DNA of 64,000 nucleotides from Microbulbifer agarilyticus (GTDB taxonomy: Bacteria; Pseudomonadota; Gammaproteobacteria; Pseudomonadales; Cellvibrionaceae): assembly GCF_001999945.1 (NCBI RefSeq), contig NZ_CP019650.1, forward strand, positions 2,046,001-2,110,000, read 5' to 3'. The notes under the pieces were generated by a model. That model did not search any database and had not been told where the DNA came from. It saw nothing but the letters and a program-made list of their open reading frames with translations. A program made the translations under genes and the position numbers. This document shows positions 5,937 to 32,388 of the stretch, piece by piece. The number at the start of each line of letters is the position of its first letter. The first letter of the stretch is position 1.

Positions 5937-6151
5937 TGGACTGCAAACAGGCAACGCGCCTCTTGTCGGAGCAGCAGGAGCGCAACCTCAGCCGCCGGGA
6001 AAAGCTCGCGCTTAAGTTTCACGTATTTATGTGCAAGGCATGCCGTAATTTCGGGCAGCAAATGGGTACCTTGCGTGACCTGGCACGATCATATGCCAAG
6101 GGAGAAGACAATGGGTCAAATCCGAGTAAAGATAAGAATCCAAATGAGTAG
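5933..6151 (+). CDS. Small zinc-finger anti-sigma-like protein
   Basis: A 72-aa soluble protein with a Cys/His pattern typical of zf-HC2 (ZAS-type) anti-sigma domains: MDCKQATRLLSEQQ at the N-terminus, then KFHVFMCKACRNF near residues 28-40 (H-x3-C-x2-C). There is no membrane segment, so if it is an anti-sigma factor it would act in the cytoplasm. The ATG overlaps the sigma-factor stop by four bases, a common arrangement for sigma/anti-sigma pairs. A longer frame begins 17 codons upstream inside the sigma gene and is less likely. Function is inferred from the motif and gene coupling. Confidence 0.8.
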   Translation: MMDCKQATRLLSEQQERNLSRREKLALKFHVFMCKACRNFGQQMGTLRDLARSYAKGEDNGSNPSKDKNPNE

Positions 6152-7025
6152 GTGACGTACCCCAATCGCCTTACGTATCCGTACAAACGCTATTGAGCCG
6201 ATCCAACTAATGCGGAAGTAGACATTCCCTTTCCTTCGTTCGAGCCGACTATTTGTGGCTTCTTATTCTACAGGCCACCAACCCAGCATTGCATTTTGTA
6301 TCTATTAATTCCCATCTGCTACCCGTACGCCCACGCAGAATTCTTATCTGAGTGTTCAATAAAGCCTACCCAGAACTCTTATCTGCAAGCAAACCAGCAT
6401 GCAACTGCGTGTTTTCTAATCAACATCTACTAAAAACAGCAGCCTATGGCTTGTGTTCACAGATTGAAGTACGCTAACCAATTGATTTATATAGATATGT
6501 ATAACAAGAAAAGAGCCATTTCAGAAATTGAAACAATAGCCCCGGGCTTCTTTTGATATTTTTGCTCAACGCGTCTAACTCGCTAAGCAATTGATTTTTT
6601 GGGGGTTATTTGGCGTGGCGTTTAATGGCTCCCGGGAACAATAGCCATTTACAACAATGGACCGGGGCTTATGAATAAAACTGTTAGATTTGGTCGGGGG
6701 CGGAGTACTTGGCCTTTTAATGATAAAGTATTTTTCGAGCTGTATGTAAATACAGTATGGAAATAATAACTAAACATATACAGTGGTATTTATTCTAAAA
6801 GGAAGATGACGATCAAAAATTTTTCGTGTTACCGTGAAGCGCTGCTTCCGCACGCAAGCACGAGTGGTTGCGGACGTAAGCCTCTCTTCACGGCAAGGAA
6901 TTTTGTCGCATCTACTATCCCTTTCAGTAGAAACTCCACTTTCATACCGTTCGTTAAGTTCTGCTTAAGCAGAGGCAAGTAGGGCCGGAGATGACGATAA
7001 ACGAATACAGTTCGCTCCGGCTAAA
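6152..7025. other. AT-rich gene-free gap upstream of the cassette array
   Basis: About 870 bases without a credible ORF on either strand, markedly more AT-rich than the flanking core genes. Visible structure: a 15-base direct repeat (14/15 match, CAGAAYTCTTATCTG) at 6336 and 6371; a large imperfect palindrome at 6832-6893 (arms CCGTGAAG/CTTCACGG with an inner GCTTCCGCA/TGCGG stem); a GTTAAGT box at 6953; and a GCCGGAG...CTCCGGC inverted repeat at about 6983-7021. In a complete integron the integrase gene and attI site would lie on this side of the array. No integrase coding sequence is present here. Confidence 0.5.
6832..6893. repeat. Imperfect palindrome in the gene-free gap
   Basis: The outer arms CCGTGAAG and CTTCACGG are exact inverse complements and enclose a second stem (GCTTCCGCA against TGCGGACGTAAGC). 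An AAAATT/AATTTT pair flanks the element. It could fold as a 60-base hairpin in single-stranded DNA or RNA. It is not followed by a T-run, so a simple terminator is unlikely. It lacks paired RYYYAAC/GTTRRRY ends, so it is not a normal attC. Confidence 0.5.
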
Positions 7026-7088
7026 ATCTAACAAGTCGCCGAACGATACCCTGCGAAAAGCGCAGGGATCGTTGGCTGATCTTTAAGC
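7026..7088 (+). other. Degenerate short attC-like site upstream of the first cassette
   Basis: Begins with a perfect R'' box (ATCTAAC) and ends with CTTTAAGC, one base away from a GTTRRRY R' box. Between them is a strong imperfect hairpin with a four-A loop (CCCTGCG aaaa CGCAGGG). Its stem carries single unpaired bases, as attC stems do. At 63 bp it is about half the length of the other sites here and shares no arm sequence with them. It could be an old or foreign attC, or an unrelated hairpin. Confidence 0.4.
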
Positions 7089-7104
7089 GGCAGTAAGAGT
7101 CAAT

Positions 7105-7596
7105 ATGATAAGGCAAGCTGAAAAATCGGATGCAGCTAGGATTGCTGAAATCTATAACTACTACGTGATAAATACATACATTACGTTTGAAGTAGATCCA
7201 GTGACAGAAGCGGAAATGTCTCTCCGTATATTGGAGTGCCATGAAAATGGTCTGCCGTGGCTCGTCGCGGAGCATGAAGGCGAAGTAGTCGGTTACTCTT
7301 ACGCAAGTAAATGGAAGGGCCGCTGTGCATATCGACATTCTGTTGAAGCTACCGTATATCTAGATCGAACTTCTCTATCCAAAGGGTGGGGCTCAAGACT
7401 ATATTCAGATCTATTTTCCAAGTTAGCTAAAAATGGAGTACATGCAATAATCTCGGGTATTGCATTACCGAATGATGCCAGTATTGCATTGCATGAAAAA
7501 TTTGGAATGGAGAAAGTGGCTCATTTTAAAGAGGTTGGACGTAAGTTTGATAATTGGGTGGATGTTGGCTACTGGCAGCGCGTGATCCGCGCTTAA
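7105..7596 (+). CDS. GNAT-family N-acetyltransferase (phosphinothricin/arsinothricin-type), cassette gene
   Basis: A 163-aa cytoplasmic acetyl-CoA-dependent N-acetyltransferase. The opening (MIRQAEKSDAARIAEIYNYY), the NTYITFE segment, the VVGYSYAS strand and the C-terminal GFxxVGrKFxxWVDVGYWQ-like end match the phosphinothricin/arsinothricin acetyltransferase subgroup. The family acetylates amino-acid analogue antibiotics, so resistance is plausible, but the substrate is not proven. It is the first cassette of the array. The stop codon TAA (7594-7596) lies inside the R'' box GCTTAAC of the following attC. The ribosome site is weak (AAGAG). Composition is AT-richer than core genes, as usual for cassettes. 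Confidence 0.85.
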   Translation: MIRQAEKSDAARIAEIYNYYVINTYITFEVDPVTEAEMSLRILECHENGLPWLVAEHEGEVVGYSYASKWKGRCAYRHSVEATVYLDRTSLSKGWGSRLYSDLFSKLAKNGVHAIISGIALPNDASIALHEKFGMEKVAHFKEVGRKFDNWVDVGYWQRVIRA

Positions 7597-7710
7597 CAAA
7601 CAGCGGCAGAGCGACAGCCAACGCTACGCACATTTTGTGTTACTCGCTGGCGCTCAAACATTAACACAAAATGTGCTCCGCGCTGGCTCCGCCTGCGCTG
7701 GGCGTTATGC
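7591..7710 (+). other. attC site 1 (120 bp)
   Basis: R'' GCTTAAC and R' GTTATGC bound an imperfect inverted repeat (inner arms GCACATTTTGTGT / ACACAAAATGTGC). It is nearly identical to attC site 2 and clearly different from the later sites. Recombination would cut between G7704 and T7705. Confidence 0.88.
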
Positions 7711-7723
7711 GGCAGTGTAAAAA

Positions 7724-8059
7724 ATGACTAAAGACAAACTAATTATTCTTGGAATCATCTTCGGCTTTGTTTGGTTTTCTGTTTCTAGCTGGTTTCCAAC
7801 CCCTGAAGCTAAAGATGTTGTCCGTTCAGCTATAGGTATTTCGTTATGTGTATGCCTGTACCTAGGTTACGCTTGGTCAAGATGGGTATTGGGTGTTCTC
7901 TCGCTAATCGCTGTCGTATTTGGTGTAATTATCGTAGCTGCTAATTCAGCCAATTTAGGAGGAAATAGTGTTGCAGTACTGGCTTTGATGTTGTGTTTTT
8001 ACGGGTATGCAGCTTTCTATCTGCTCAATCCCAAACTGCTGCAATCCCATTTCAAATAG
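7724..8059 (+). CDS. Small integral membrane protein, cassette gene
   Basis: A 111-aa hydrophobic protein with about four membrane segments: IILGIIFGFVWFSVSSWF, AIGISLCVCLYLGYA, WVLGVLSLIAVVFGVIIVAA and SVAVLALMLCFYGYAAFYLL. A charged MTKDK start suggests an N-in topology. I do not recognise the family. It fills a whole cassette between attC sites 1 and 2, with its ATG 19 bases after the recombination point and no clear ribosome site. It probably depends on an upstream promoter. Confidence 0.7.
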   Translation: MTKDKLIILGIIFGFVWFSVSSWFPTPEAKDVVRSAIGISLCVCLYLGYAWSRWVLGVLSLIAVVFGVIIVAANSANLGGNSVAVLALMLCFYGYAAFYLLNPKLLQSHFK

Positions 8060-8064
8060 TGGCC

Positions 8065-8184
8065 GCATAACAAGCAGCGGCAGAGCGACAGCCAACGCTA
8101 CGCACCTTTCGTGTTACTCGCTGGCGCTCAAACATTAACACAAAATGTGCTCCGCGCTGACTGCGTCTGCGCTGGGCGTTAAGT
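8065..8184 (+). other. attC site 2 (120 bp)
   Basis: R'' GCATAAC (one mismatch) and R' GTTAAGT. Almost the same sequence as site 1 along the whole element, including AGCGGCAGAGCGACAGCCA next to R''. This implies recent common origin of the two neighbouring cassette ends. Confidence 0.88.
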
Positions 8185-8200
8185 GAGTAAAGGAATACCA

Positions 8201-8449
8201 ATGAAGTCATTTTTGTTCAATCTGGTGGGCCTTTTAGGTTCTTGGCACTTTATAGATCTGTCCTCTAGCTATTCACTCAATTCAGTCTTTGCACCAATCA
8301 TCTTTACTGGCTTTCTCATATCTAGCATTCTCTGGTTTATTGTGAAATTTGGTGCCAATCAACGTACCAGTAGCGGCGGGTATTTCGGGGGCGATGGCGG
8401 TTATGGTGGTGGAGGTGACGGCGGAGGTGGGGGCGATGGCGGGTGCTAG
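8201..8449 (+). CDS. Small membrane protein with Gly-rich tail, cassette gene
   Basis: An 82-aa protein with two hydrophobic segments (FLFNLVGLLGSWHFI and FAPIIFTGFLISSILWFIV). A low-complexity tail of Gly and Asp follows (GGYFGGDGGYGGGGDGGG...) and ends in Cys. The ATG at 8201 has AAAGGA seven bases upstream. An in-frame GTG at 8183 inside the attC R' box is a less likely start. The acidic Gly-rich tail resembles those of small secreted or membrane proteins of unknown role (for example TIGR04222-like tails). I do not recognise a specific family. Confidence 0.65.
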   Translation: MKSFLFNLVGLLGSWHFIDLSSSYSLNSVFAPIIFTGFLISSILWFIVKFGANQRTSSGGYFGGDGGYGGGGDGGGGGDGGC

Positions 8450-8454
8450 TCCAC

Positions 8455-8598
8455 ACTTAACAAGCACGGGCAATGAAGCTCCGGCCCTTCGGGCCTCCGC
8501 GGGACGGCTTACCTTATGCACGTTTTGCGCTGTCGCTTCGCTCTCATTTTCGCGCAAAACGCGCATAAAGTAATCCGCCCCTGCCGTGGGCGTTATGT
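8455..8598 (+). other. attC site 3 (144 bp)
   Basis: Perfect R'' ACTTAAC; R' GTTATGT. First of the roughly 144-bp attC family that dominates the rest of the array. A small hairpin CTCCGGCCC...GGGCCTCCG is followed by long arms around a GCGCAAAACGCGC core. Confidence 0.88.
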
Positions 8599-8609
8599 GG
8601 CAAACATAA

Positions 8610-8942
8610 ATGTGTAAATTGACTGGAAGTGAAGTGACAGAGCTGCAATGGGGAGACGCCGAGTTCACTGGCTACTATTGGGATTCCGAGCTAAAAGATC
8701 CAGCGCTAGTAATTCGAGTTAAGCCTTCTAAATCTACTTTCCAGGAATTGATTTGCTTCTGGGCCACCAACCTGAATTTGAACCTAAATTACTTGGATCA
8801 AGTGGGCTCTTTACGTACATGGGCGGTAACCTTTGAAAGCCTGCCAGAGGGAAGATGGCGTGTACTTTTTGATTTTGCTGGCCAAGGAAGTGTCGAGTTT
8901 GAGTGCAACAGTCTGGCAATACGCTCCGTGCTCGGTGCCTAA
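8610..8942 (+). CDS. Hypothetical protein, cassette gene
   Basis: A 110-aa soluble protein with no signal peptide or membrane segment and many aromatic residues (QWGDAEFTGYYWDSEL, LICFWATNLNLNLNY, TWAVTFESLPEGRWRVLFDF). The alternating hydrophobic pattern suggests a beta-rich fold. No family recognised. It begins 17 bases after the recombination point of attC 3 and ends just before attC 4, so it is a standard single-gene cassette. No strong ribosome site is visible. Confidence 0.65.
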   Translation: MCKLTGSEVTELQWGDAEFTGYYWDSELKDPALVIRVKPSKSTFQELICFWATNLNLNLNYLDQVGSLRTWAVTFESLPEGRWRVLFDFAGQGSVEFECNSLAIRSVLGA

Positions 8943-8945
8943 GCC

Positions 8946-9089
8946 ACATAACAAACACAAGCAGAATGCTCCGGCCCTTCGGGCCTCCGCGGGACGCCCA
9001 ACGCTACGCACGTTTTGTGCAGGTCGCTGCGCTCCCAGTTTCGCACAAAACGTGCATAGCATTGGTCGCCCCTGTTGTGGGCGTTAACT
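8946..9089 (+). other. attC site 4 (144 bp)
   Basis: R'' ACATAAC and R' GTTAACT. Central arms GCACGTTTTGTGC / GCACAAAACGTGC. The inner part contains CCAACGCTACGCAC, also found in sites 1 and 2, so it looks like a mosaic of the two site types. Confidence 0.86.
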
Positions 9090-9100
9090 CAAAGACAAGT

Positions 9101-9877
9101 ATGATCGAGCCTAGCGTTAAAAGAGAAATTCTTGAAAGAATCAATAGAGCCGAAAAAGAACATGGAGTACGTGTTCTTTATGCTATTGAGTCTGGAAGCC
9201 GAGCCTGGGGGTTTGAGTCTCCCAATAGTGATTATGATGTTCGTTTTATTTATGCGCATCCCAAGGATTGGTATGTTGCGGTTGATCTCGAAGACAAAAG
9301 AGATGTCATTGAGTATCCAATTGTTGATGAAATCGACATCAATGGCTGGGATGTACGAAAAGCCTTAAAATTATTCTCTAAGTCAAACCCAGCGTTCGTT
9401 GAATGGTTACAGTCTCCTATTGTATATATTGAGCGAGGTTGTTTTGCTCAAAAAGCAAGAGAAATTCTTCGTGATATTTACTCTGTTAACAGGGGGATAT
9501 ACCACTATCGAAGTATGGCAAAGACGAACTATAGAGGTTATCTTCGAGAGGACATCGTTCCAATCAAGAAATATTTCTATGTTTTAAGGCCACTGCTTTC
9601 AATTATGTGGCTAGAGAAGTATCGAGAGCCTGCCCCAATTCAATTTGAGGTGTTGCGAACTCTAATTGCCGATAACATTGAGCTAAATGGTCAAATCTCA
9701 GATCTACTTCAGAGAAAAAAGATAAGCCTAGAAAAAGAGATGGCGCCAAAAATTACTGAACTAAATTTCTTTATCGAATCTGAGCTTGAGAGATTGGAGG
9801 ACTTTTCAGATGCTTCCGAGAGGGCTGGCGAAATCATGGGTGAGCTAAATTGCCTGTTCCACGAGATCCTGAGTTAA
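9101..9877 (+). CDS. Nucleotidyltransferase of the RlaP/COG3541 type, cassette gene
   Basis: 258 aa. The nucleotidyltransferase signature is clear near residues 26-45: ESGSRAWGFESPNSDYDVRF (GSRxxG...DxD, the two metal-binding Asp). EYPIVDEIDINGWDVRKAL follows and is typical of the predicted nucleotidyltransferase family that includes RlaP, which some authors link to RNA repair. The substrate is unknown. This is the largest cassette gene in the array. The frame is open upstream through attC 4, but the ATG at 9101, 17 bases after the recombination point, is the natural start. Its TAA lies in the R'' box of attC 5. Confidence 0.8.
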   Translation: MIEPSVKREILERINRAEKEHGVRVLYAIESGSRAWGFESPNSDYDVRFIYAHPKDWYVAVDLEDKRDVIEYPIVDEIDINGWDVRKALKLFSKSNPAFVEWLQSPIVYIERGCFAQKAREILRDIYSVNRGIYHYRSMAKTNYRGYLREDIVPIKKYFYVLRPLLSIMWLEKYREPAPIQFEVLRTLIADNIELNGQISDLLQRKKISLEKEMAPKITELNFFIESELERLEDFSDASERAGEIMGELNCLFHEILS

Positions 9878-9988
9878 CAAGGTGCTGCAGATGACGTCTT
9901 ACTTTATGCACGTTTTGCGCTGTCGCTACGCTCCTATTTTCGCGCAAAACGCGCATAAAGTAAGCCGCCGCAGAGCACGGCGTTAACA
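9872..9988 (+). other. attC site 5 (117 bp, shortened)
   Basis: R'' AGTTAAC and R' GTTAACA. Keeps the long GCGCAAAACGCGC arms of the 144-bp family but lacks the CTCCGG...GCGGGAC sub-hairpin near R'', which explains the shorter length. Confidence 0.82.
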
Positions 9989-9989
9989 C

Positions 9990-10451
9990 ATGAAATACAT
10001 CGTAATTTTAGGGCTAATAATTTTCTGCTCTCCAGCATTGGCCACAAAATGCTGGACTCAATCTCAAAATGAGTTGGTAGCTAACAGCGTCGGTAAAGAT
10101 GCGTTTGAGTTTGCTATTGAAAGGGCCCAGTTTATCTTCGTAGGAAAGGCGAAGAACGTTCAAAAAACGATCTACGAACAAGAAGGTGCAGAGCCCCGAG
10201 TTCTCGCAGTGGAAGCAGAATTCGAGGTTGAAGAAGCTATAAAAGGCAACGTTTCTGGTGAGCTAGTTACTAAAAGTGATGACATTTGCGCTTGTAAGTA
10301 TCAATTTGAGCCCGGAATTACATATTTGGTAGTAGCTGGTAAGTACAAGAATAAATTGCAAGTTTATAGTTGCGAGTACATTAGTCCTGTAGATCAATCA
10401 AGGGTCGCAGATGCCCGCAGGATCATAGATGTTAACAAAGCCAGGCAGTAA
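9990..10451 (+). CDS. Secreted Cys-containing protein (possible NTR/TIMP-like fold), cassette gene
   Basis: 153 aa with a clear signal peptide (MKYIVILGLIIFCSPALA, cleavage near residue 18). The mature part contains CWTQ, FIFVGKAKNV, a CACKYQFEPGITYLVVAG segment and a late Cys in YSCEY. The F-x-G-K-V...C-x-C...F-x-x-G-x-x-Y-L-V pattern is reminiscent of small bacterial netrin/TIMP-like secreted proteins. This is a tentative match. The ORF runs through the R'' box and its last residues (NKARQ) and stop are encoded by attC site 6. The next cassette does the same. Confidence 0.7.
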   Translation: MKYIVILGLIIFCSPALATKCWTQSQNELVANSVGKDAFEFAIERAQFIFVGKAKNVQKTIYEQEGAEPRVLAVEAEFEVEEAIKGNVSGELVTKSDDICACKYQFEPGITYLVVAGKYKNKLQVYSCEYISPVDQSRVADARRIIDVNKARQ

Positions 10452-10574
10452 AGCTCCGGGCCTCCGGCCCTCCGCGGGACAGCCTACCTTGTGCACGTTT
10501 CACGCGGGTCGCTGCGCTCCCATTATCGCGCAAAACGCGCACAAGGTAGGCTGCCCCTGCTGGCGGCGTTAGGT
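10430..10574 (+). other. attC site 6 (145 bp)
   Basis: R'' TGTTAAC and R' GTTAGGT. Arms CAGCCTACCTTGTGC / GCACAAGGTAGGCTG are perfect complements, including a compensated change (CCTACC/GGTAGG) relative to the CTTACC/GGTAAG of most other sites. The first 22 bases also encode the end of the preceding ORF. Confidence 0.88.
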
Positions 10575-10579
10575 ATCAC

Positions 10580-10924
10580 ATGAAAATTGCAACCATAGTG
10601 GCTGCTATATCGTTGTTTGCAATGAATGTTACAGCTGGTGAAAGTGAGCAGCGGATATTAGTTCGGGAAGCCGGTTATATATATCACGGACATACATACA
10701 AAGGTATCAATGAATTAAAGTCGGTTCTTGATCCACTGCCGCCAAATCATTCAATTTCGTATCATTTTTTACCTTGTTCTGAGAGGATTAATTCACTTAA
10801 AAACAGCTTAGAGACCTATTTAAAAATACGAAATTTTTCGAAGGTTTCTAGCTCCTTCCCGCTTTGTGGTTGTCACTGTGGAAGTGATAAGGTACAAGAA
10901 ATACCTAACAAGGCCAGGCAATGA
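10580..10924 (+). CDS. Small secreted protein with C-terminal Cys cluster, cassette gene
   Basis: 114 aa with a signal peptide (MKIATIVAAISLFAMNVTAG). The mature protein has one central Cys (FLPCSERIN) and a C-terminal cluster PLCGCHCGS (C-x-C-x-C). This could bind a metal or form disulfides in the periplasm. No family recognised. The last residues (PNKARQ) and the TGA stop are encoded by attC site 7, parallel to the previous cassette. Confidence 0.65.
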   Translation: MKIATIVAAISLFAMNVTAGESEQRILVREAGYIYHGHTYKGINELKSVLDPLPPNHSISYHFLPCSERINSLKNSLETYLKIRNFSKVSSSFPLCGCHCGSDKVQEIPNKARQ

Positions 10925-11047
10925 AGCTCCGGGCCTGTGGCCCTCCGCGGGACAGCTTACCGTGTGCGCGTTTTGCGCAGGTCGCTGCACTCCCATTTTT
11001 GCGCAAAACGTGCACACGGTAAGCTGCCCCTGCTGGCGGCGTTAGCT
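10903..11047 (+). other. attC site 7 (145 bp)
   Basis: Perfect R'' ACCTAAC; R' GTTAGCT. Arms CAGCTTACCGTGTGC / GCACACGGTAAGCTG carry a paired change relative to neighbouring sites, so the stem is conserved rather than the exact sequence. Confidence 0.88.
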
Positions 11048-11062
11048 GTGGTAAAGAGAATT

Positions 11063-11368
11063 ATGAGAAGAAAATATACAGCGTCAGAAATATACGAAGA
11101 AATTGGGCCGAATTTAGTGAGCTGCTGGATCACTTCATACCTGATGGGAGTGTTGTTTCTTGGTTCTCTCGCTTCCACAATACTTGGCGGGATGGGCTAC
11201 GACACGATATTGCTCGTTTTCTCAGGCCTCATTCTAATCCAGGCTATCCGTGGAATTGTAAAGCTAAGAAAATTGCGGGCAAGGTTACAAGCAGATCCTG
11301 AGTCAGTTCGTATGTCAGAGGTTTTAACAGCCCCGAGCTTCAAGGGTATATATGCCTTTGTGAGGTAG
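11063..11368 (+). CDS. Small two-helix membrane protein, cassette gene
   Basis: 101 aa with two hydrophobic segments (ITSYLMGVLFLGSLASTILGG and ILLVFSGLILIQAI) between a charged N-terminus (MRRKYTASEIYEEIG) and a basic, helical C-terminal tail (VKLRKLRARLQADPESVRM). Family not recognised. The open frame extends back through attC 7, but AAAGAGA just before the ATG at 11063 marks the start. Confidence 0.65.
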   Translation: MRRKYTASEIYEEIGPNLVSCWITSYLMGVLFLGSLASTILGGMGYDTILLVFSGLILIQAIRGIVKLRKLRARLQADPESVRMSEVLTAPSFKGIYAFVR

Positions 11369-11369
11369 C

Positions 11370-11513
11370 AGCTAACAAGGCCGGGCAACTTGCTCCGGGC
11401 CTGTGGCCCTCCGCGGGACAGCTTACCTTGTGCACCTTTTGCGCAGGTCGCTGCGCTCCCATTTTTGCGCAAAATGCGCACAAGGTAAGCTGCCCCTGCC
11501 GGCGGCGTTAGCA
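11370..11513 (+). other. attC site 8 (144 bp)
   Basis: R'' AGCTAAC and R' GTTAGCA, with the AAGGCCGGGCA / TGCCGGCGGC outer arms typical of the main family. Confidence 0.88.
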
Positions 11514-11550
11514 ATAGAGATATCCCCATCTGTCAAAAAGGACAAGACAA

Positions 11551-11886
11551 ATGAAAAACATGTTTAAATTTATTTTTGTATCTATCGTTGCGCTAGTATC
11601 AACTTCGGTATGGTCATTAGAAATAACTGCTGACGAAGTCCGTAGCCACGCTGGTAGTGAGTCAAGATTATACTCGGGTAACGTAAGGGTTTTACTCCCT
11701 GAAAATTCAGATTTCGAAACAACCTCTCTGACTGTGAAGACCCTATCAAGTGGTGAGCAAATCTTTGAGGGTGGCGTCACCATTAAATTCAAGGATTTAA
11801 TATTGAAGACGGAAAAAGTAGTAATATCATCTACTGAGGGCGGCCTCATGGCTTCAATGGATAGAGCGGAAGTAACGGGCAAGTAA
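11551..11886 (+). CDS. OstA/LptA-like periplasmic beta protein, cassette gene
   Basis: 111 aa with a signal peptide (MKNMFKFIFVSIVALVSTSVWS). The mature part is built of short alternating strands with the rhythm of the OstA/LptA domain: LEITADEVRSH, RLYSGNVRVLLPE, SLTVKTLSSGEQIFEGGVTIKF, LILKTEKVVIS and DRAEVTGK. LptA-type proteins form the periplasmic bridge for lipopolysaccharide transport. This one is shorter (about 90 mature residues) and sits alone in a cassette, so it may be a decoy, an adaptor or an unrelated beta-helix protein. A GGACAAGACAA ribosome-site-like sequence precedes the ATG. Confidence 0.65.
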   Translation: MKNMFKFIFVSIVALVSTSVWSLEITADEVRSHAGSESRLYSGNVRVLLPENSDFETTSLTVKTLSSGEQIFEGGVTIKFKDLILKTEKVVISSTEGGLMASMDRAEVTGK

Positions 11887-11888
11887 AT

Positions 11889-12032
11889 TGCTAACAAGGC
11901 CGGGCAATCTACTCCGGGCCTGCGGCCCTCCGTGGGACAGCTTACCTTGTACACCTTTTGCACGGGTCGCTATGCTCCCATTTTCGCGCAAAACGCGCAC
12001 AAGGTAAGCTGCCCCTGCCGGCAGCGTTATGA
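11889..12032 (+). other. attC site 9 (144 bp)
   Basis: R'' TGCTAAC and R' GTTATGA. Main family. Some stem bases differ from its neighbours (CTTGTACACC), weakening one arm slightly. Confidence 0.86.
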
Positions 12033-12041
12033 GTCTTAAGC

Positions 12042-12410
12042 ATGAAGCTACTCAGGGAGTTTACATCGCTGTCAGATGCCGAGCTTTTGTCCAATAGGCT
12101 CAGGTCAAAAGGAATTCTCACGCATATATCTGGAGTGAACTCGAAGCAGCTTGGAGCAATAGCGACCGGAACAGTTAAAGTTGGAGTTTGGGCTGTCTTA
12201 AACGAGCAAGTGGACGATGCTACAGCTTTGCTTACAAATAGTAGGCATACTGTTAGGCATCAGCTCACAGAAGAAGAGATGTCGCGTCTAGAGAGTGAAT
12301 CTCAAGGTAAGGTTGCAGCCTCTCTGAGTTCGCTATTGAATAAGCTAGTTTTTGCCTTGGTAGCACTAATGATTATGGTGGTAGCGTACAGCGTACTATC
12401 AAACTCATAA
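12042..12410 (+). CDS. DUF2007-like protein with C-terminal membrane anchor, cassette gene
   Basis: 122 aa. The N-terminal 65 residues follow the DUF2007 (putative signal-transducing protein) pattern: a strand (LLREFTSLSD), a helix with a GI turn (ELLSNRLRSKGILTHISG), then VKVGVWAVLNEQVDDATALL. The last 20-odd residues (LVFALVALMIMVVAYSVL) form one membrane segment. A relative without the anchor but with a zinc ribbon occurs outside the array at 22329. The role is unknown. The stop TAA is part of the attC 10 R'' box. Confidence 0.68.
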   Translation: MKLLREFTSLSDAELLSNRLRSKGILTHISGVNSKQLGAIATGTVKVGVWAVLNEQVDDATALLTNSRHTVRHQLTEEEMSRLESESQGKVAASLSSLLNKLVFALVALMIMVVAYSVLSNS

Positions 12411-12548
12411 CAAGGCCGGGCAATATGCTCTGGGCCTTCGGCCCTCCGCGGGACAGCTTACCTTGTGCACCTTTTGCGCGAGTCGCTGCGCTCCCAGTTT
12501 CGCGCAAAATGCGCACAAGGTAAGCTGCCCCCGCCGACGGCGTTATCT
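12405..12548 (+). other. attC site 10 (144 bp)
   Basis: R'' TCATAAC and R' GTTATCT. Main-family arms CAGCTTACCTTGTGC / GCACAAGGTAAGCTG. Confidence 0.87.
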
Positions 12549-12569
12549 TCAAGATGGAATCATGATCCG

Positions 12570-12929
12570 ATGAAATATTTATCCCTCTTGTTACTTCTTA
12601 TTCCTTTTCATGGATATGGTTCGAGTAACAGCATTCCTGAAGAATATTGGGGTACTTGGGACAGGCATTGTAAGGAAGGCAGAGCCGCCACTGATTCTAT
12701 CGTTCATATCCGCAAAGATGTCATTTATGGGTATGAAGAAAAGAAAGATATATTGAGCGTTGTGCTTCCTGAAGAAAATAAAATTGAAGTCGAATATATC
12801 TTTATCTACGATGGGGTTGAGTACACTGGGTCTTATAAATGGGAGCTCCGAGGTGAGTCTCTAGTTAGTGTTCATCCAGGGACAGGCGAGGAGTGGGTCA
12901 TCCATAAATGCGGTCCGTATGAGCCCTAA
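12570..12929 (+). CDS. Small secreted protein of unknown function, cassette gene
   Basis: 119 aa with a signal peptide (MKYLSLLLLLIPFHGYG). The mature part is acidic and aromatic with two Cys (DRHCKEG and IHKCGP) that could form one disulfide. Motifs such as IPEEYWGTWDRHC and the strand-rich EYIFIYDGVEYTGSYKWEL look like a small beta-sandwich or lipocalin-like domain of the kind where a WGTW signature opens the barrel. This is a tentative reading. The longer upstream frame is only translated attC sequence. Confidence 0.65.
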   Translation: MKYLSLLLLLIPFHGYGSSNSIPEEYWGTWDRHCKEGRAATDSIVHIRKDVIYGYEEKKDILSVVLPEENKIEVEYIFIYDGVEYTGSYKWELRGESLVSVHPGTGEEWVIHKCGPYEP

Positions 12930-12933
12930 ATAA

Positions 12934-13076
12934 AGATAACAAGGCCGGGCAATAGCTCAGGGCCTTTGGCCCTGCGCGGGACAGCTTACCTTGTGCACGT
13001 TTTGCACGAGTCGCTGCGCTCCCATTTTCGCGCAAAACGTGCACAAGGTAAGCTGCCCCTGCCGGCGGCGTTAGTT
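12934..13076 (+). other. attC site 11 (143 bp)
   Basis: R'' AGATAAC and R' GTTAGTT. Main family; inner arms GCACGTTTTGCAC / GCAAAACGTGC. Confidence 0.87.
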
Positions 13077-13091
13077 GTCCTAAGGAGAATC

Positions 13092-13430
13092 ATGAAAGGG
13101 CTTCAGGTTACGGGGTTAACCATGTCCTTGCTATCACTGCTACTTGCCTATTTCCTGTTGGTTCCAGTTGAGCCAAGCACACCGAGTTCCTCAGCAGGTG
13201 CAGCTGGGTTAGGAATAATGTTCATTGTGCTTCCTGCATTGGGAGCGTCCGCGATTATGTTTGTTCCAACATCTGTCGCATTACTATGGGGTATTAATCG
13301 TATACGATCGCGGTTTACTGGGCTGTTTTGGTACAGTGTGTGGGCTCTGAACGGCATTTTTACACTGATATACATGCTTTTGGGGGCTTGGCTCATATAT
13401 ATGTGGGCTTTTCATGCTCCGGCCAACTAA
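13092..13430 (+). CDS. Small integral membrane protein, cassette gene
   Basis: 112 aa with about three membrane segments (MSLLSLLLAYFLLVPV, GLGIMFIVLPALGASAIMFVPTSVALLWG, FWYSVWALNGIFTLIYMLLGAWLIYMW). Family not recognised. AAGGAG lies six bases before the ATG, the best ribosome site in the array, so this gene could be translated well if transcribed. The stop TAA is within the R'' box of the last attC. Confidence 0.68.
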   Translation: MKGLQVTGLTMSLLSLLLAYFLLVPVEPSTPSSSAGAAGLGIMFIVLPALGASAIMFVPTSVALLWGINRIRSRFTGLFWYSVWALNGIFTLIYMLLGAWLIYMWAFHAPAN

Positions 13431-13568
13431 CAAGGCCGGGCAACTTACTCCGGGCCTGCAGCCCTCCGTGGGACAGCTTACCTTGTGCACCTTTTGCGCA
13501 GGTCGCTATGCTCCCATTTTTGCGCGAAATGCGCACAAGGTAAGCTGCCCCTGCCGGCGGCGTTAAAT
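13425..13568 (+). other. attC site 12 (144 bp), last clear site of the array
   Basis: R'' AACTAAC and a perfect R' GTTAAAT. Main-family arms. After this site no further intact attC is seen, so it marks the visible downstream edge of the array. Confidence 0.88.
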
Positions 13569-13652
13569 ATAAGACTTACCCACGTTTAGTAGACACCCAA
13601 GAATGAATAAGGTAATAACCTCCGGAGCTTAACAACGACGTTGTCTATTACC

Positions 13653-14156
13653 ATGAAGGTATATATTTTGCGTAAAATTTTGATCTTTGGGAATTCCGGA
13701 TCTGGAAAGTCTACCCTAGCTAAGCGTCTTTCTGATGAGAATGATTTAGTACATTTAGACCTGGATCTATTTGCCTGGCTGCCAGGTTCGCCGCCGCGAA
13801 GAATGCCGCTTAGCGAGTCTAGTGAAAAAATCGCTACATGCCTCAAGGGGCGTGATAGTTGGGTGGTGGAGGGGTGCTACACAGATTTACTGGAGATATT
13901 GGCGAAAGATGCGTCTGAGATGCTTTTCATGGATCTGTCAATCGAGAAGTGTATCGCAAATGCCAAAAATCGGCCTTGGGAACCACATAAGTACGAGTCT
14001 AAAGAAGCTCAAGATGCAAATCTTGATATGCTGGTGAGTTGGATAAAGGAATATGATACGAGACTGGATACTTTTTCGCGTGCAGCCCATCGAGAGTTAT
14101 TTGCCGCCTTTCAAGGCAAGAAAACACTTTATACAGAGAATCAAGTGCACGATTAG
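13653..14156 (+). CDS. P-loop kinase-like NTPase (adenylate kinase / FlaR-like)
   Basis: 167-aa cytoplasmic NTPase. Walker A FGNSGSGKST is near residues 11-20. HLDLDLFAW follows, then the lid-like NAKNRPWE region, as in the small adenylate/shikimate kinase-like proteins often annotated as topology modulation proteins. The substrate is unknown. It follows the last attC directly (84 bases after its R' box) and is on the same strand, so it may be a former or terminal cassette whose own attC was lost. The in-frame TTG at 13641 is less likely than the ATG at 13653. Confidence 0.75.
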   Translation: MKVYILRKILIFGNSGSGKSTLAKRLSDENDLVHLDLDLFAWLPGSPPRRMPLSESSEKIATCLKGRDSWVVEGCYTDLLEILAKDASEMLFMDLSIEKCIANAKNRPWEPHKYESKEAQDANLDMLVSWIKEYDTRLDTFSRAAHRELFAAFQGKKTLYTENQVHD

Positions 14157-24379: not shown

Positions 24380-25624
24380 ATGGCTATTCCACACCCCGTT
24401 CCACTCTATCCCACGTACAGTGAGCTCAAAGATCTGAGCTTCAACAATTACCCGGACCTCAACAAGTTTCTGCAGGATGGCGATTCCTGGTGGGTGCCGC
24501 ATTGGCTATGGGGCCAGGAGTTTCTCTCTTACACGGGCCGTAACAAGTCTGAACATACCTATACACGCTTTCGCAACGAAACCGAGCGCTTTCTCCTGTG
24601 GCTGTTCCTGGTCAAAGGTGTACCCATGGAGCGGCTACGCAAAGCGGACATTCTCGAATACGCAGATTTCTGCTGGCAGCCACCGGTTGATTGGATCTGC
24701 CTGGCGAACCACGAGAAGTTTCAGTTCAACAATGGTCGTTTTGTGGCCAATACTGCCTGGGCGCCATTCAAGCTGAAAGTACCGAAAAACCTCGAAAATA
24801 CGAATTCTGAGCCGGATAAGCGCAAATACAAGCCATCTCAACAGACTTTGACGGCGACCTTTACCGGAATCATCGCATTCTATAAGTATTTGATGAATGA
24901 AGAGCATCTATATGGAAACCCCGCCCAAATCGCCAAGCGGGATTGCCGGCATTTCATCAAGGATGCCCAGGTCAAAGAAGTCCGACGCTTAACCGAGGCC
25001 CAGTGGCAATACGTATTTGATGTTGCGCTGACGATGGCCGATGAAGACCCAATCTACGAACGTAGCCTGTTTGTTATCTGTGCCTTAAAGACATTGTTTC
25101 TGCGGATATCTGAGCTGTCAGAGCGTCCACAATGGAGCCCGATTATGAGCCACTTCTGGCAGGACACTGATGGCAACTGGTGGTTGAAGATTTTTGGTAA
25201 AGGCCGGAAATTGCGTGATATCACCGTACCAGACAGTTTTATCCCGTTTTTAAAGCGCTACCGGGCCTACCGGGGCATGAGCCCTTTTCCGTCAGCTGGC
25301 GAGAATCAGCCAATCGTCGAAAAGATTCGCGGTCAGGGCGGCATGACTTCACGACAGCTTACCCGTGTTGTGCAGCAGGTATTCGATCGCGCCTACGAAG
25401 AGATGCGCCAGGCAGAGGGCGAAGATCACGCGTACAAATTGAAGGAAGCCTCCAGTCATTGGTTACGCCACACTGGGGCGAGCATGGAGGTCGAGCGCGG
25501 CCGTGCACTTAAAGATCTATCAGAGGACTTGGGGCACTCAAGTATGGCCACAACGGATACGATTTATGTCCACACCGAGAGCAAGGTGCGCGCAAAGAGT
25601 GGAAAACAGCGGGATGTGAAGTGA
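24380..25624 (+). CDS. Tyrosine site-specific recombinase
   Basis: 414 aa. The N-terminal core-binding (SAM-like) domain covers roughly residues 45-180 and includes a long insert (PPVDWICLANHEKFQFNNG). The catalytic domain has Arg in TLFLRISEL, Lys in FGKGRKLRD, HxxR in SHWLRHTGAS, His in LGHSSMATT and the nucleophile Tyr in TIYVHTE. The extra helix that marks integron integrases is not evident, so it is more like a XerC/D- or island-type recombinase. No att site, tRNA or phage gene is adjacent. It could mobilise part of the upstream accessory region or be an orphan. Confidence 0.9.
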   Translation: MAIPHPVPLYPTYSELKDLSFNNYPDLNKFLQDGDSWWVPHWLWGQEFLSYTGRNKSEHTYTRFRNETERFLLWLFLVKGVPMERLRKADILEYADFCWQPPVDWICLANHEKFQFNNGRFVANTAWAPFKLKVPKNLENTNSEPDKRKYKPSQQTLTATFTGIIAFYKYLMNEEHLYGNPAQIAKRDCRHFIKDAQVKEVRRLTEAQWQYVFDVALTMADEDPIYERSLFVICALKTLFLRISELSERPQWSPIMSHFWQDTDGNWWLKIFGKGRKLRDITVPDSFIPFLKRYRAYRGMSPFPSAGENQPIVEKIRGQGGMTSRQLTRVVQQVFDRAYEEMRQAEGEDHAYKLKEASSHWLRHTGASMEVERGRALKDLSEDLGHSSMATTDTIYVHTESKVRAKSGKQRDVK

Positions 25625-32023: not shown

Positions 32024-32140
32024 GTTCAACCCCTAGGGACAAAAGCACATGGGATCGAGGGAGGAATAGCAAAACACCACACATGCGCGTGGAAAAAGGT
32101 CTTGCCGGATGGTAGCCCTCCGCTCCATCGTGGTTCGATT

Positions 32141-32286
32141 AGAGGCCGGTATCGGGCTTACCACTTCTGGCCATTAAAGATAGAAGTGGATCACCGTTGC
32201 GGGGGCAGCGCCGGAATTCCGGACTTCCCGTTTAACCTTCCCAACCTGTCGGCGTGTGGCCGAATAGACAGGTAGAAGGCACCTCA
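32141..32286 (-). ncRNA. Cobalamin riboswitch (B12 element) leading btuB
   Basis: Read on the minus strand, the conserved blocks occur in order: GAGGTGCCTTC (32286-32276), TTAAACGGGAA, GGAATTCCGGCGCTG, then CCCCGCAACGGTGA, and finally the B12 box variant AAGCCCGATACCGGCC (near 32158-32143). The order and spacing match adenosylcobalamin riboswitches. The gap of about 115 bases to the btuB start has no clear T-run terminator, so control may be at translation initiation near AGGGG-TTG. Confidence 0.93.
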
Positions 32287-32388
32287 GATCGCGGGTGCGA
32301 CGTTAGGGGAAAGGGACTGTGAAGTCAATGGTTGGTCGGGCTGGGTACGGTAGCGCACTGCCCGACCGATAAGTATCGCGGTGGGGTT

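Follow-up and report, generated by a model that had tools for sequence, protein, structure and literature searches.

Introduction

Several described systems resemble the locus reported here, as far as the cited passages go. Large chromosomal integrons run with replication (PMC11023631), and SOS induction is known for integrons (PMC8618304). Cassette arrays without a neighbouring integrase gene, termed clusters of attC sites lacking integron-integrases (CALINs), recur at fixed, conserved loci in Xanthomonas, in passages that leave attI there unmentioned (PMC12444791), and are numerous in Shewanella genomes, both with and without the integrase gene intI (PMC9229058). Three origins of CALINs are named in the relevant passage of PMC8618304, dispersed attI not being among them, and a report of orphan attI platforms was not found among the matches listed for the open-access literature, a scope outside which subscription papers fall.

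The present analysis concerns a cassette array in a 64,000-nucleotide (nt) stretch of a Microbulbifer genome nearest to M. agarilyticus (G000, a single contig of 4,255,625 bases). This whole stretch, G000:C1:2046001-2110000, is referred to as the window. A preliminary description, made from the letters alone, had recognized twelve small-gene cassettes from 7026 onwards, labelled them a CALIN and taken the array to be either cut off from, or fed by, an integrase elsewhere. The evidence assembled below makes it likely that the array belongs, as one platform among several, to a distributed integron whose one or two integron integrases (IntI) serve many attI sites in trans. The array is probably not a decayed leftover, as it appears to have an attI of its own, with the recombinase encoded elsewhere on the chromosome. 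Such a layout of few enzymes and many docks is apparently recurrent across Microbulbifer and in some related genera.

The attI site and leader cassette of the window array

The array comprises 12 attC sites and 12 single-open-reading-frame (ORF) cassettes between 7593 and 13569, with sites and short ORFs alternating on the + strand throughout, as first described. All twelve attC were recovered by three routes (repeats, alignment and a covariance model) and end in TAAC...GTTA. Paired end boxes and a bottom-strand hairpin, which mark an integron cassette array, are both present, as is one small ORF per cassette in a single orientation (12/12). For the bottom strand, a consensus hairpin of 44 pairs is predicted; at 11 of these, at least one sequence is changed on both sides, and nine sites (attC 3, 4 and 6-12) are branched, carrying an extra side hairpin in one arm.

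The array itself thus stands as described, but its start does not: position 7026 falls on the attC of a leader cassette, and the true start lies about 590 nt further upstream, where an attI module is followed by a 399-nt leader cassette. The features of this region are as follows (a slash marks the crossover).

6437..6683, + strand: orphan attI module, type A; crossover between G6683 and T6684, within ATGAATAAAACTG/TTAGAT
6684..7082, + strand: leader cassette (part B), 399 nt, first cassette at attI
6740..6755, + strand: box CTGTATGTAAATACAG, which we take to be of LexA type; the only CTGTN8ACAG in the 64-kb window
6806..6982, + strand: leader-cassette ORF, 58 amino acids (aa), no Pfam match
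7026..7089, + strand: leader-cassette attC, short and divergent; crossover CT/TTA rather than G/TTA; unreported by the covariance model

The attI module contains the motifs AGCCTATGGCTT at 6441, AGCCCCGGGCTT at 6538 and ACCGGGGCTT at 6661. Window positions 6435-6686 are 73% identical over 252 nt (E 4e-42) to the region between the integrase gene intI-A, located elsewhere on the chromosome, and its array. The window has a single occurrence of the attI core pattern, against zero in 100 shuffles. A tblastn search detected no intI within 900 nt upstream of this attI, so that the in-cis intI of a complete integron is lacking, and a consensus scan of 6437-6683 for promoters of the sigma-70 type only revealed no Pc. 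The CALIN label holds by the operational definition (an attC cluster with no neighbouring intI) but is incomplete, as that definition takes no account of the attI.

Copies of the leader cassette that are 99-100% identical occur at the orphan attIs D, E (the window site) and G, and behind one attC inside array C. The cassette starts at the crossover beside each of these three different attIs and the one attC, and at the far end identity stops after CTTTA. Homologues in G007 (81%) and G047 (79%) likewise start right at an attI-like core, those at L155, L156 and L159 match only from leader position 98 on, away from any attI core, and the match at L157 covers 47 nt. The crossover of the leader attC (7082-7083) carries T in place of G in all four G000 copies, yet these are joined to four different sites; the homologues in G007 and G047 retain G/TTA.

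As a separate observation, the leader cassette occupies first position at an attI core in three species (window 6684-7082; L025, L026, L028, L153 and L154). At their starts, intI-A and intI-B carry boxes similar to CTGTATGTAAATACAG. When up to 3 mismatches were allowed, a specific LexA consensus had no match, and the looser CTGTN8ACAG had one. A homologue search for the 58-aa leader ORF found none, and the RNA of 6800-6925 has a strong fold (z -4.1). The leader may perhaps supply a promoter driven by SOS, or be a small cassette of regulatory or toxin-like nature.

Integrases and attI sites across the chromosome

A search of the entire genome identified two integron integrases above the TIGR02249 cut-off of 265 bits, at 2.85 and 0.21 Mb:

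intI-A, 2854710-2855648, + strand: 416.2 bits, no internal stops
intI-B, 214241-215179, - strand: 402.5 bits, no internal stops

Both lie outside the window, in agreement with the earlier statement that none is encoded there, and the tyrosine recombinase at window position 24380, correctly suspected not to be of integron type, scores 27.2 bits against the same cut-off. The best NCBIfam match of this recombinase (24380-25624) is XerC, far below cut-off; its DNA is also present in Microbulbifer sp. HZ11 (L052 15587-16713), where attC near the sigma-factor gene were not found.

The covariance model, R1, was trained on the 12 window attC and matches them by construction, so the real test of the attC family is provided by its matches elsewhere on the chromosome. 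There, 49 further sites were found in six other stretches (E up to 0.1, best strand for each; the count covers R1 matches and not end motifs), at 0.216, 0.278-0.285, 1.188-1.193, 2.841-2.853 and 2.967-2.969 Mb, with a single site at 2.750 Mb. At this threshold, the loci hold 25 (A), 2 (B), 9 (C), 7 (D), 12 (E, the window), 1 (F) and 5 (G) sites, and 34 of the 61 are at integrase-less loci; the scan scored 150 of 2029 first-look candidates, and weak attC may be missed. Eight attI sites were found in G000, of which two adjoin intI and six are orphans:

attI C, 277872: type A, orphan, core pattern search
attI D, 1186794: type B, orphan, core pattern search
attI H, 1268432: type A, orphan, no R1 attC within 3 kb
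attI E (window), 2052672: type A, orphan, core pattern search
attI F, 2750726: type C, orphan, type-C core search
attI A, 2854352: beside intI-A, core pattern search
attI G, 2969817: type A, orphan, core pattern search
attI B: beside intI-B, core variant TTAATAAACTG

An attI heads every attC cluster found in G000, so that attC arrays are present at seven loci and attI at eight, with intI at two only. The earlier proposal that the array was cut off from its integrase is disfavoured because the window array, like the other integrase-less arrays of G000, has its own attI; the alternative offered with it, that the array is fed by an integrase elsewhere, is supported at the sequence level by two intact intI genes and by the cassettes that integrase-less arrays share with the intI-A array.

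The attI sequences can be compared with the enzymes beside them. A core ending AACTG/TT or AAATG/TT lies 280-322 nt before the aligned intI start in 29 of 31 intI loci, and the end types track the IntI group: type A (at least 75% identity to IntI-A) ends GAATAAAACTG, type B mostly GAATAAACTG or GAATTAACTG, and type C mostly GATnnAAATG. B-like ends also occur at two loci that match IntI-A best, at 64%. With regard to orientation, all seven G000 attIs counted are co-oriented with replication from dnaA, and F, found later, fits too (8/8). A gammaproteobacterial dif pattern had no match in the terminus search, and the G000 terminus therefore rests on GC skew.

Cassettes shared between platforms and comparison with a close relative

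Array C, which is headed by an orphan attI, and the intI-A array have in common a 1130-nt inter-attC stretch and three cassette bodies of 569, 318 and 267 nt, all 100% identical. These pieces are neighbours in C, whereas in A other cassettes stand between them; starting from attI, C has the order of A with the two halves exchanged. Arrays were compared by alignments of at least 160 nt, with the F array of G000 not included, and only hits of at least 98% are used for these claims, since hits of about 80% may come from unmasked weak attC or repeated small cassettes.

The closest named relatives, judged by the array-adjacent extracytoplasmic function (ECF) sigma gene, are M. agarilyticus DP4N21-6 (G001, 96%) and DP3N0-2 (G002, 92%). 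Loci of G000 and G001 were compared by alignments of at least 200 nt (at least 100 for D and 60 for H). Up to the crossover, identity is 95.8% at C (2.9 kb), 95.0% at F (3.1 kb) and 94.6% at G (4.2 kb), and at all three loci homology stops within 5 nt of the crossover. No alignment of at least 160 nt joins the C or G arrays of the two genomes, the G001 arrays being cut by contig ends at 2.6 and 3.0 kb, so that sharing may exist deeper in them. At locus H, attC were undetected in G000 and number three in the G001 counterpart.

At the window locus, the flanks (up to 6119 and from 14218 on) are conserved in G001. In G001 and G002, this locus carries a type-C attI together with an intI of a different type (47% identity to intI-A), and no homology to the relatives' loci was found for 6125-6434. 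Locus D (7.9 kb, type-B attI) is absent from G001, which has 167 nt between the same two genes. About 3.4 kb further right, a type-B attI is present in G001, and G000 has no core there; no target duplication was seen at locus D by eye. A type-B attI array is thus reciprocally present and absent in the two genomes (L026 2506-10418 versus L233 6901-7069; L259 at about 1436 versus L272 at 4358). Homologous replacement by way of the flanking genes would be a simple explanation for the arrival of the attI module and would suit loci D and E.

Orphan attI sites in the genus and beyond

The type A/B core is present in 44 of 48 Microbulbifer genomes (two matches in total for the reversed control) and the type-C core in 31 of 48 (four for the control). 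In the 38 genomes G000-G037, to which the totals of cores and intI are confined, 202 attI cores contrast with 64 intI matches at E 1e-60 or better, two of the 64 scoring below the integrase cut-off and drafts being able to hide an intI past a contig end; 39 of the cores are within 700 nt of intI and 163 are not. The excess persists in the 14 single-contig genomes among them, which have no contig end to conceal an intI and contain 70 orphan cores against 27 intI. Of 46 sites examined closely, four have intI within 900 nt upstream. Downstream attC were detected at 30 of 38 orphan attIs (40 loci), and each of the 89 attC tabulated has the expected orientation and is on the array side of attI, palindromic sites being assigned to the higher-scoring strand and partial or contig-cut matches (L210, one of L221 and the last of L212) being excluded.

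Ten alignable type-A orphan modules from six genomes share a unit with a sharp edge at -247, mean conservation rising from 0.50 to 0.89 at -250. Columns conserved at 90% or more number 95 of 252 inside the module versus 7 of 348 outside, and the conserved columns are clustered (63 adjacent pairs versus a maximum of 50 in 5000 permutations).

A second class of orphan attI was also observed, with a shorter shared module of about 84-127 nt and a TCTATATCTGG-like sequence ahead of the core (L025 2884, L201-L204, L213, L215, L218-L220 and L229-L231); at every one of them, the 900 nt upstream are free of intI.

Among 244 genomes of the order, attI pattern matches were found in 37, five of which are Microbulbifer. 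Outside the genus, 32 of 238 genomes have matches, 45 in total, compared with 17 in the reversed control, and because this excess is modest, only genomes with aligned copies were used; single matches outside the genus are often due to chance. Three genomes of related genera, G100, G266 and G257, contain an intI-linked core together with at least one orphan copy, aligned over 219-434 nt, 45 nt and 28 nt, respectively. G285, G250 and G094 have two or three core copies aligned over 176-601 nt, with no intI in the stretches examined (the rest of each genome was unsearched). No shared sequence was detected in the 300 nt downstream of the core in any pair of these copies tested.

Alternative explanations

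The view of the window array as a platform of a distributed integron draws on sequence-based supports: the putative window attI and its homology to an intI-linked attI, the sharp-edged module shared by orphan sites, the attI heading every attC cluster found, three loci at which homology between species is lost at the crossover, and the occurrence of identical cassettes on several platforms. A number of observations weigh against it. Three of the 46 sites examined closely are without module homology to any other, 8 of the 38 orphan attIs are without R1-detected attC, and the ten aligned modules were picked because they could be aligned, L214 being dropped as the counterpart of L028. G024 and G042 have several type A/B cores (five) and no intI at E 1e-60, which implies that some orphan attIs outlive an integrase, and G001 and G006 have type-A orphans yet no type-A intI, which implies that the matching of enzyme and site is not strict. 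In the 420 nt ending at the crossover, G000 and G001 are 93% identical at C, 90% at G and 80% at H, while the flanks, at 94.6-95.8%, are no worse; strong selection on each orphan attI is therefore not supported, and the functional case is carried by the module shared across the genus rather than by this pair. The canonical G is missing from the leader attC. Only 43 of 60 attI in 14 genomes, intI-linked ones included, are co-oriented with replication (termini outside G000 were set at half the genome length, rounded for four), so that the polarity is taken as a tendency among related, non-independent sites. Finally, recombination is deduced here from sequence comparison, and cassettes could also move by homologous recombination.

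This last point leads to the strongest alternative, in which the orphan modules are genuine former attIs and arrays that have similar attC recombine homologously, bringing in cassettes without IntI. It is in keeping with the attC used as query, which is up to 91% identical to sites in other G000 arrays, and with loci D and E, which resemble replacement through flanking genes. It accounts poorly for a leader cassette that begins at the crossover beside three different attIs and one attC, and for cassettes that are adjacent in C and both separated and reordered in A, and we consider it unlikely.

Less probable still is a plain decayed CALIN, an old array that has lost its integrase and in which recombination is over. 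The location of all G000 intI genes outside the window speaks for it, as do the published view of CALINs as degraded integrons (in passages of PMC9024848), the presence of intI at the window's own locus in DP4N21-6 and DP3N0-2, and the attI conservation at C, G and H, which does not exceed that of the flanks. However, the relatives' intI is of the other type and their attI is type C, whereas the window attI is type A; the leader cassette is near-identical at four places; and there are cassettes in common with the intI-A array. Degraded CALINs have no insertion platform left, and here an apparent attI remains at 6437-6683, its first cassette recurring at other loci. A related candidate, in which the window array corresponds to the intI-C integron of the relatives but without the integrase, was rejected on the grounds that the attI is type A and not C and that 6125-6434 is without homology.

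Off-target insertion of cassettes at a non-att site (attG) by a resident integrase, a known route (cited in a passage of PMC12444791) and the first suspicion, is scarcely credible, since the array begins at a 247-nt type-A attI module homologous to an intI-linked attI rather than at a minimal site, 6125-6434 has no homology to the relatives' loci, and attI cores at the heads of clusters C to G contradict it there.

Cassettes of the window array

The cassettes and their sites, all on the + strand, are given below in order. Products were searched against Pfam (all 12) and NCBIfam (ORFs 1-6, 8 and 10, that is, 8 of 12).

7105..7596, +: cassette ORF 1, ArsN1 family B (ArsN1b) arsinothricin N-acetyltransferase, GNAT; NF040504 219.5 bits, cut-off 210; first gene cassette after the leader
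7593..7711, +: attC 1; bottom strand folds; covariance model
7724..8059, +: cassette ORF 2, 111 aa; no family above cut-off
8067..8185, +: attC 2; covariance model
8201..8449, +: cassette ORF 3, 82 aa; three cassette copies at 98% identity, two in the intI-A array and one in array C
8457..8599, +: attC 3, branched
8610..8942, +: cassette ORF 4, 110 aa; cassette 98% identical at the same locus (E) in M. agarilyticus DP4N21-6 (G001)
8948..9090, +: attC 4, branched
9101..9877, +: cassette ORF 5, RlaP-type nucleotidyltransferase; PF10127 280.8 bits, cut-off 23
9874..9989, +: attC 5; covariance model
9990..10451, +: cassette ORF 6, 153 aa; sub-cut-off TIMP match only
10432..10575, +: attC 6, branched
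10580..10924, +: cassette ORF 7, 114 aa; no Pfam family; 99% identical cassette present in array F of G001
10905..11048, +: attC 7, branched
11063..11368, +: cassette ORF 8, 101 aa; no family in Pfam or NCBIfam
11372..11514, +: attC 8, branched
11551..11886, +: cassette ORF 9, 111 aa; LptD_N match below cut-off
11891..12033, +: attC 9, branched
12042..12410, +: cassette ORF 10, DUF2007-like; 24.6 bits, cut-off 25.7
12407..12549, +: attC 10, branched
12570..12929, +: cassette ORF 11, 119 aa; no Pfam family
12936..13077, +: attC 11, branched
13092..13430, +: cassette ORF 12, 112 aa; no Pfam family
13427..13569, +: attC 12, branched
13641..14156, +: kinase-like gene (AAA_18), beyond the last attC

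Within the scope of these searches, only ORF 1 (ArsN1b) and ORF 5 (RlaP) pass a curated cut-off, which makes it fair to call the array the richest source of undescribed genes in the window. A PADLOC search covering 10 of the 12 cassette proteins (ORFs 1, 2, 4-7 and 9-12) returned nothing. The kinase-like gene at 13641-14156 is possibly a terminal cassette without a recognized attC; a match to it was not found in the G001 flank, and positions 13560-13598, covering the end of attC 12 and the following nucleotides, match L211, L140 and L155 at 90-92%. At Rfam gathering scores, the sole match in the window is a cobalamin riboswitch (32136-32291, - strand, 48.9 bits).

Proposed mechanism and comparison with known systems

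In the distributed integron proposed here, IntI-A (2.85 Mb) and IntI-B (0.21 Mb) would act in trans, one or the other presumably being the enzyme at work, and the array would need no intI in cis. The integrase would excise cassettes as folded attC bottom strands and insert them at any of the eight chromosomal attI sites. SOS stress may switch on the integrase, as the CTGTN8ACAG boxes at the starts of intI-A and intI-B make SOS induction likely. The benefit might lie in a larger number of first, expressed positions per genome, eight instead of two.

We lean somewhat towards a broader proposal, in which attI itself is a multiplying genomic module and few integrases run a chromosome-wide attI set in trans in Microbulbifer and several related genera; many chromosomal CALINs would thus be working platforms whose attI is overlooked by common software, which seeks attI in class 1 only. 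If many CALINs carry attI, they would represent live capture sites, and the integron would be a system that acts in trans and offers each genome several first positions. The question of CALIN origin and function becomes testable at orphan attI, for which attI sequences next to their intI are now available from four genera and the -247 edge offers a guess at the working attI length.

Compared with known systems, the G000 set resembles a sedentary chromosomal integron in its single attC family, one-ORF cassettes, attI and LexA-type box at intI, and in attI mostly oriented with replication, a known bias (in passages of PMC11023631). It differs in having attC arrays at seven loci and attI at eight, with intI at two only. 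The window array resembles a CALIN in lacking an adjoining intI, whereas at its head stands an attI followed by a young cassette. Saccharophagus is a related genus. S. degradans 2-40 likewise has a core integron and the same 140-bp repeat elsewhere, although attI at those other places is not described in the passages concerned (PMC2386152). The Delta-attI gene cassettes of mobile integrons also present attI-derived sequence off its usual place; as portrayed in passages of PMC12901181, however, they are attI fragments of variable size inside cassettes, whereas those of Microbulbifer are modules of about 250 nt that head chromosomal arrays.

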